Shown here in pieces: positions 21,280-23,091 of a stretch of DNA of 53,488 nucleotides (the first letter of the stretch is position 1; each line of letters starts with the position of its first letter). Under the pieces are notes generated by a model that did no database searches, had not been told where the DNA came from, and worked only from the letters and a program-made list of their open reading frames with translations. Source of the DNA: Actinomycetota bacterium (GTDB lineage: Bacteria; Actinomycetota; CADDZG01; JAHWKV01); the NCBI GenBank assembly GCA_030447305.1, contig JAUJPC010000002.1:614142-667629 (forward strand), read 5' to 3'. The position numbers were made by a program, and so were the translations under genes.

Positions 21280-23091
21280 ATGCGACGGTTGAGATACGGA
21301 GTGGCCGGTTTAAAGGATCCAACGGATCTTCAAGCCTCGATCGACCATCTGGTTGCTCACGGCTTTGCGCAGTGCGAGGTGCAGTTCGTGAAGGAGTTCA
21401 CGCTCAAGGAAGCGGACGCAAAACGCCTCGGCGAGGTGGCGAGGGACAACGGCATCGGGCTGTCCGTCCACGCACCGTACTTCGCTCAGCTGACCACCAA
21501 GGAGCCCGAGCGGCTGAAGCTCCACCTGGGCGGCCTTCATCACGCCTGCAAGCTGGCGAGCGCCATGGGGGCCACGGTGGTGGTGTGCCATCCCGGCAGC
21601 CACCACGGAGCGACGCCGGAGGAGCTGCACGAGCGCGTCAACGCGAACCTTGCCGATCTGGGGCCCCGGATCGGGGATCTGGGAGTGAAGCTCGGCCTGG
21701 AGACCTGCGGGAGAAGGTCGCAGTTCGGCGCCCTCGGAGACATCGCCCTGATGGTCAAGGAGCATTCCTTCACCACCGTGGTCATCGATTACGCCCATAT
21801 CCATGCGTTGTCGAATGGATCGCTCGACAGTCCGCAGGCGATGGAAGCTTTGTTCGCCTACGTCACCGAGCAGTTCTCGTTCGAGCACTTCTGGCCTCTG
21901 CACACGCATTTCAGCGACAACGAGTACGGGCCTGGGGGGGAGATCCGCCACGTTCCTTACGGGCAGGGGTCCCTGCGCATCGGCCATGTCGTGCAGGGCG
22001 CCAGTAAGTTCGATATGGCCCTCACCGTGGTCTCCGAGGAAAAGGACGCCGGCTCCCACGTGGCGATTCTTGACGAGCTCAAGTCCACCGGCGCTCCGCT
22101 GGTATTCCCGGCCAAACGTGAGGTGGTCCGGCGGGAGCGGGAGGGTCTGTGGTTCCCGCATCCCATCCCTCTCGAACGGAAGAACCAGGCGCATGTCTTC
22201 AGGCACGGGGCCCGGGAGGTGCGAATAACCAACAAGGACAAGGTCTACTTCCCTGAGGGCGAGATGACCAAGGGTGACCTCATCAACTACTACTACAACG
22301 TTGCCCCGATGATGCTCCCGTTCCTGCGGGACCGTCCCATCGCCATGCAACGGGTTCCCGAGGGGATCTACGGCGAGGCCTTCTACGAGAAGCAGCTTCC
22401 CAAAGGGGCCCCGGAGTGGGTTCATTCCGTGCCGATCTCCGCAGAAGGAGGCAGCAGGACCATCGACTTCGTGGTGGTCGAGGATGTCGCCACTCTGGTG
22501 TGGCTGGCCCAGATCGCCAGCGTGGAGGTGCACGCCTGGACCAGCAAGTGGCCCAAGCTGGATGAGCCCGACTTTGCCGTGCTCGACCTGGACCCGCATG
22601 AGCCAATTGAGTTTGAGGATGTCCGGGCGGTGGCGCGGCTGGTCAAGGTGGTGCTGGACGGCCTGGGCCTGCGAGCGTTCCCGAAGACCTCCGGCGGATC
22701 AGGGCTGCAGATCTTCATCCCCATAACTCCTGGCCATTCCTACGCCGAGGTCCGCGAGTTCTGCGTCGCGGTGGGAGGGATGCTGCGAACGGCCTATCCG
22801 GAGAAGGTTACGCTGGAGTTCGCAAAGGCCAAGAGGGCGGGCAAGGTCTACGTGGACGCCGGACAGAATGCCAAGGGCCAGACTCTCGTCGCCCCCTACT
22901 CCGTTCGGCCCTACCCGGGAGCGCCGGTCTCGGCGCCTCTGGCGTGGGACGAGCTCGACGAAGAGATCTTTCCCGAGATGTTCAGCATGTGCTCGTTGTT
23001 CGAGCGTATCGAGCAGGTGGGCGACCTGTTTGCCGATGCAATGAAGATCCGGCAGGATCTGCATCCTGCATTGGAGAGGTTGAGCGGCTGA
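21280..23091 (+). CDS. fusion of an endonuclease-IV-like AP endonuclease barrel with a LigD-type polymerase domain
   Basis: A 603-residue two-domain protein. Residues 1-275 form a TIM barrel of the AP-endonuclease-2/xylose-isomerase-like family. The zinc-site residues of endonuclease IV can be matched: His64 (SVHAPYF), His104 (CHPGSHHG), Glu141 (LGLETCG), Asp170 and His173 (IDYAHIH), His210 (HTHFSDN), His224 (RHVPYGQG) and Glu253 or Glu254. Residues 310-600 are the primase-like polymerase domain of bacterial NHEJ ligase LigD: VRITNKDKVYFPEGEMTKGD, VLDLDP with Asp436/Asp438, and FPKTSGGSGLQIF. No ligase or Ku is in the window. The likely role is end or gap processing in DNA repair, with lesion incision and fill-in in one chain. 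The ATG at 21280 matches the endonuclease IV N-terminus; a TTG 33 bases earlier is possible. Confidence 0.88.
   Translation: MRRLRYGVAGLKDPTDLQASIDHLVAHGFAQCEVQFVKEFTLKEADAKRLGEVARDNGIGLSVHAPYFAQLTTKEPERLKLHLGGLHHACKLASAMGATVVVCHPGSHHGATPEELHERVNANLADLGPRIGDLGVKLGLETCGRRSQFGALGDIALMVKEHSFTTVVIDYAHIHALSNGSLDSPQAMEALFAYVTEQFSFEHFWPLHTHFSDNEYGPGGEIRHVPYGQGSLRIGHVVQGASKFDMALTVVSEEKDAGSHVAILDELKSTGAPLVFPAKREVVRREREGLWFPHPIPLERKNQAHVFRHGAREVRITNKDKVYFPEGEMTKGDLINYYYNVAPMMLPFLRDRPIAMQRVPEGIYGEAFYEKQLPKGAPEWVHSVPISAEGGSRTIDFVVVEDVATLVWLAQIASVEVHAWTSKWPKLDEPDFAVLDLDPHEPIEFEDVRAVARLVKVVLDGLGLRAFPKTSGGSGLQIFIPITPGHSYAEVREFCVAVGGMLRTAYPEKVTLEFAKAKRAGKVYVDAGQNAKGQTLVAPYSVRPYPGAPVSAPLAWDELDEEIFPEMFSMCSLFERIEQVGDLFADAMKIRQDLHPALERLSG

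Follow-up and report, generated by a model that had tools for sequence, protein, structure and literature searches.

Two domains in one reading frame

The window, by which we mean the whole 53,488-nucleotide stretch of actinomycetotal DNA analyzed here, contains an open reading frame that starts with the ATG at 21280 and stops at 23089-23091 (Table 1). Its N-terminal part matches Pfam family PF01261 (AP_endonuc_2) over residues 22-239 (E 6.3e-27; 95.3 bits versus a Pfam cut-off of 31.1), and its C-terminal part matches PF21686 (LigD_Prim-Pol) over residues 330-584 (E 3.8e-88; 295.8 bits versus 27.4). The polymerase part also scores 265.9 bits with TIGR02778 (ligD_pol), above the curated cut-off of 214.7. 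A first-pass annotation had placed both domains in one chain at these positions; Pfam searches and the translation agree, and the same single ORF in other genomes bears out the single chain. Pfam search found no ligase domain in the 603 residues, and the protein is thus not a whole LigD enzyme. An anthranilate phosphoribosyltransferase-type gene lies 31 bp downstream of the fusion in the window and 2 kb off in genome G001.

Table 1. Features of the barrel-polymerase fusion, in positions of the window
Feature	Position	Strand	Basis
Whole ORF, barrel-polymerase fusion, 603 aa	21280..23091	+	orthologues with the same single ORF
EndoIV-like TIM barrel, residues 1-278	21280..22113	+	PF01261; model pLDDT >90 over most of it; Foldseek
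His64, equivalent of EndoIV His69	21469..21471	+	invariant in 15 barrels
His104, equivalent of EndoIV His109	21589..21591	+	alignments
Glu141, equivalent of EndoIV Glu145	21700..21702	+	alignments
Asp170 and His173, equivalents of EndoIV Asp179 and His182	21787..21798	+	alignments
His208 and His210, one in place of EndoIV His216	21901..21909	+	profile alignment favors 208
Glu221 and His224; His224 matches EndoIV His231	21940..21951	+	alignments
Glu253, equivalent of EndoIV Glu261	22036..22038	+	alignments
Linker (residues ~279-297; 280-286 modeled with low confidence)	22114..22170	+	AlphaFold model
Primase-polymerase domain of LigD type (residues 298-603), lacking the Loop 3 of Prim-PolC	22171..23088	+	PF21686, TIGR02778, Foldseek
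5'-phosphate pocket Asn318, Lys321, Lys331	22231..22272	+	alignment; pocket as in PMC7442782
Catalytic Asp436 and Asp438 (DLDP)	22585..22593	+	alignment
KTSGG motif, residues 469-473	22684..22698	+	alignment
Third catalytic Asp526	22855..22857	+	alignment

Structure prediction with AlphaFold2 from an alignment of 38 rows recovered both folds (mean pLDDT 94, pTM 0.61); with only six close sequences as input, the polymerase part was poorly modeled (pLDDT 62). The model consists of two confident domains on a loose linker, with their mutual placing uncertain. Foldseek comparisons give the barrel a target TM of 0.79 to Escherichia coli endonuclease IV (EndoIV; 1qum) and 0.78 to MJ1311 (3wqo), and sugar epimerases have the same fold. 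The polymerase reaches 0.83-0.93 to solved Prim-Pols.

To which polymerase group does the C-terminal domain belong? The DLDP aspartates and the KTSGG motif reported in the first pass are present, and a third catalytic aspartate was found as well. The domain resembles the LigD polymerase domains of M. tuberculosis (2iru) and M. paludicola (5dmu) in fold (target TM up to 0.93), in its catalytic Asp triad and 5'-phosphate pocket, and in its place in the tree among LigD-type polymerases. The known partners of those domains are ligase and phosphoesterase (PE) domains (PMC8656161); the present domain is paired with an EndoIV-like barrel. Prim-PolC is defined by a C-terminal extension, Loop 3 (PMC5663958, PMC7442782), which is absent from the fused polymerase, the chain ending before it; a separate Prim-Pol on contig C3 of the same genome has the loop. 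In the polymerase tree the Prim-PolC group (support 100/100) leaves out the fused polymerases, which stand with LigD-type polymerases of the class on joining branches of moderate support. Among these class relatives, one gene adjoins a PE-ligase gene (G017, L091) and another polymerase lies within an 842-aa Pol-PE-ligase ORF (G007). Membership of the fused polymerase in Prim-PolC was rejected on both grounds, the missing loop and the position outside the clade.

The predicted metal site of the barrel

Is the barrel an endonuclease IV? Fifteen homologous barrels, 12 fused and three unfused, with identities down to 32%, were aligned, and eight residues are invariant in all of them: His64, His104, Glu141, Asp170, His173, Glu221, His224, and Glu253. 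The barrel was also compared, profile against profile, with E. coli Nfo and the class's own Nfo proteins (probability 97.9%). Eight of the nine EndoIV ligand positions are aligned, one of them with an ambiguous register (His208 or His210). The ninth ligand, Asp229, falls in the profile alignment on Ile222, adjoining the invariant Glu221, which may act as its stand-in. The residues in the ligand list of the first-pass annotation are all present, and seven (His64, His104, Glu141, Asp170, His173, His224, Glu253) are invariant. Where it had offered Glu253 or Glu254, the former is invariant and the latter is not conserved; its His210 is indeed a histidine in the window protein, but families f30, f32, and f52 have Gln at that position, and the alignment favors His208. 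In the structural model these putative metal ligands sit at the ends of barrel strands or just past them.

Three residues after His64, Tyr67 matches Tyr72 of EndoIV, which penetrates the DNA. This tyrosine is present in 12 of 12 fused barrels examined, and the position is Leu in all three unfused ones. Stand-alone barrels in family f43 (L077:6489-7322, L078:6490-7296, L079:6518-7330) keep the metal-site residues and have Leu for Tyr67.

The barrel shares with EndoIV (Nfo) the TIM-barrel fold and the equivalent of Tyr72; of the nine ligand positions eight can be aligned, one in ambiguous register. It differs in forming a separate clade on a long branch in the tree, in leaving Asp229 unaligned, and in scoring 44.7 bits with the curated nfo model TIGR00587, whose cut-off is 129.65. 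Because of this score we call it an EndoIV-like relative and not a proven Nfo; as a canonical Nfo it was rejected, being far under the cut-off and having Ile222 aligned with Asp229.

Distribution and genomic company

The fusion occurs in seven of the eight genomes of the order, the remaining one being 64% complete, with orthologue identities of 63-87%. When our phylum sample of 396 genomes was searched with the barrel profile, eight further genomes proved to carry both domains (families f30, f32, f52, and f35), and stand-alone barrels appeared in f43. The barrel precedes the polymerase in the first three of these families, and the barrel-polymerase order is found in 12 genomes altogether. The more distant orthologues of those three families are about 39-45% identical to the window protein; over the whole set, identity drops as low as 37-44% in both domains. 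In f35 the order is reversed: a 600-aa ORF carries the polymerase at residues 30-281 and the barrel at about 347-593, intact in two genomes and frameshifted in a third (G265, L086:6381-8194). The fusion of G003 (L011/L013), one of the seven genomes of the order, has an in-frame TAG; this and the G265 frameshift may be real decay or sequence errors of metagenome-assembled genomes (MAGs). The first-pass annotation had proposed listing the taxa with the same architecture, and these prove to span several families of the phylum and both domain orders. Since both orders exist, the domains were joined at least twice or were rearranged after joining; in AU tests, one common clade of all fusions receives p 0.04-0.08, values that allow one origin or more.

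Elsewhere the searches yielded less. Sister family f3 of the same class has polymerase relatives only, with no matching barrel at the threshold used. The fusion was not found in the plasmids, phages, and viral contigs searched, and a single-sequence search of a genome-contig collection returned near relatives only. An assembly chimera was rejected, as orthologues carry a single ORF in the order and in other families.

What other end-joining and repair genes accompany the fusion? In the window's genome, Ku and an adjoining ligase gene occupy C2:559-561k; contig C3 carries a Prim-PolC gene at a distance of 2.6 kb from a ligase, and C7 encodes a PE domain. Also present are two Nfo-type genes and, in all, several ATP-dependent ligase genes. 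Both Ku and an ATP-dependent ligase, for which the first pass had suggested looking, are therefore present, and its idea that an AP endonuclease replaces the ligase and phosphoesterase is not supported here: with Ku, ligases, PE, and Nfo-type genes at hand, the fusion is not replacing missing functions in this genome. The two Nfo-type genes also led us to reject the fusion as a simple substitute for a lost Nfo.

Ku is found in all 15 fusion genomes and in 190 of the 396 genomes of the sample. The hypergeometric p is 1.2e-5 when genomes are counted and 0.003 when genera are counted (10 of 10 genera positive); both are overstated by shared descent, and the fusions represent about five lineages. 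The fusion is the sole Prim-Pol in G065, G089, G226, and G265; G065, G089, and G226 also have a ligase gene some 1.7-1.8 kb away from Ku. The PE domain was not found in six of the 15 (G065, G185, G303, G339, G265, and G003 (incomplete)) and was found in the other nine, the window's own genome among them. An operon of the fusion with Ku or ligase was considered and rejected, since neither is beside the fusion in any locus read.

G065, G339, and G076, of families f30 and f32, encode a stand-alone 5'-3' exonuclease some 2 kb away from the fusion (L080:5602-6474, L081:3692-4615, L083:4042-4923), with other genes between, not in one operon with the fusion.

What the fused protein may do

Why join an EndoIV-like barrel to a LigD-type polymerase? 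The fusion in both orders suggests that the two domains act jointly to clean and fill damaged DNA ends. Our leading reading, held tentatively, is a two-enzyme protein for 3'-end cleaning and gap filling that works most likely in Ku-dependent end joining. The N-terminal barrel would be a metal-dependent, EndoIV-type phosphoesterase; it would remove blocks from 3' ends or cut next to a lesion, leaving a 3'-OH. The C-terminal Prim-Pol would bind the 5'-phosphate on the far side of the gap or break and fill in one or a few nucleotides, often ribonucleotides if the precedent of the family applies, and a separate ATP-dependent ligase would seal the nick. At a Ku-dependent junction the barrel would thus take the role of the LigD 3'-phosphoesterase domain. 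The architecture, its conservation in both orders, the conserved catalytic residues, the LigD-type placing of the polymerase, and the company of Ku are observed; the nuclease activity, the transfer from one site to the other, and the pathway itself are parts that we infer.

Several lines of evidence point to end joining. The pairing is seen in both orders, 12 barrel-polymerase fusions and two polymerase-barrel fusions with a frameshifted third; the metal-site residues are invariant, and Tyr67 is confined to the fused members of the 15 aligned barrels; and the catalytic triad and 5'-phosphate pocket of the polymerase are intact. The polymerase tree places the domain with LigD-type polymerases and not with Prim-PolC, Ku accompanies every fusion, and in four genomes the fusion is the only Prim-Pol. 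Moreover, the PE domain was not found in four of the fusion genomes (G065, G185, G303, G339). Enzymes of the EndoIV family have 3'-repair activity (PMC6341776), a task of the same kind as that of the PE domain within LigD (PMC8656161). Against end joining stand the separation of the fusion from both Ku and ligase in every genome read, the PE domain kept in most fusion genomes, the missed nfo cut-off, the unaligned Asp229, the uncertain domain placing (pTM 0.61), a best profile match, MJ1311, without known nuclease activity, and a Ku link that shrinks once relatedness is considered.

The main rival is base excision repair. Here the barrel would incise 5' of abasic sites and the Prim-Pol would fill the resulting gap of one nucleotide, with no part for Ku. 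The protein would be a single-chain version of the mycobacterial LigC/Prim-PolC excision-repair complex, which likewise joins EndoIV, Prim-Pol, and ligase, although as separate proteins (PMC5663958). Pull-downs and epistasis connect EndoIV with both LigC and LigD (PMC5663958, PMC4770248): tagged mycobacterial EndoIV pulls down LigC, LigC1 binds EndoIV and Prim-PolC (PMC5663958), and LigD and Nfo of B. subtilis are not additive for spore survival (PMC4770248). The exonuclease genes near three of the fusions would also suit excision. The Prim-PolC of the mycobacterial complex, however, has Loop 3, the mark of gap filling in that group, which the fused polymerase lacks while standing outside the Prim-PolC clade, and the window's genome already owns a Loop-3 Prim-PolC with its nearby ligase, besides the two Nfo-type genes. 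Furthermore, Prim-PolC bound LigC1 only in in-vitro blots (PMC5663958), so a direct contact between EndoIV and a polymerase is without precedent. On balance we regard base excision as less likely than end joining, albeit a serious contender.

Less probable still is a barrel that is catalytically dead or does not act on DNA, serving as a structural or regulatory module or as an MJ1311-like enzyme while the polymerase alone takes part in repair. By profile the nearest solved barrel, and the best full-length PDB match, is MJ1311 (1.1e-16), with EndoIV behind at 1.6e-10; the ninth ligand is not aligned, position 210 varies, and the fold is common to sugar epimerases. MJ1311 is an uncharacterized stand-alone archaeal EndoIV/tagatose-epimerase-like protein with Phe, not Tyr, three residues after the first ligand His. 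It reportedly conserves the EndoIV zinc ligands but has no DNA groove. Yet the metal-site residues of our barrels stay invariant at 32-45% identity and the Tyr72 equivalent appears in the fused ones only; among the curated NCBIfam models deoxyribonuclease IV scores highest for the barrel (1e-11), and the joining of the barrel to a DNA polymerase in both orders speaks for work on DNA. That the architecture is an assembly artefact or a chance adjacency of two genes can practically be dismissed, as single ORFs occur in many genomes of six families and in two domain orders.

Returning to end joining, the protein is possibly, and here we are more hesitant, an undescribed end-joining module in which an EndoIV-like nuclease and an NHEJ polymerase, joined in both orders, offer an alternative to the LigD 3'-phosphoesterase and, in some lineages, the sole Prim-Pol of a Ku-positive genome. 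LigD is built from ligase, polymerase, and phosphoesterase modules whose order is shuffled among species (PMC8656161), and the EndoIV-like barrel would be a possible fourth. We found no description of an EndoIV-like module on a polymerase in the open-access papers searched, in keeping with the first-pass remark that no such example was known. Covalent fusion in both orders is a separate line of evidence for joint action of an EndoIV-type nuclease and a Prim-Pol at one and the same DNA end, and it provides a single chain that allows 3'-end cleaning to be assayed together with gap filling.

Two further loci of the window's genome concern the same gene families. At C7:66.0-67.0k (L042:3998-4996), and likewise at L195 and L199, a PE domain precedes a ligase domain that lacks the KxDG adenylation motif; in its place the three species read FEPRLEGQR, FEPQLEGQR, and FEPNLEGQR, a conserved pseudo-ligase of the genus. 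At C4:570.6-571.5k (L041:6632-7530) a further Prim-Pol gene is split by a frameshift; it is intact in sister species (L022, L023, L025).
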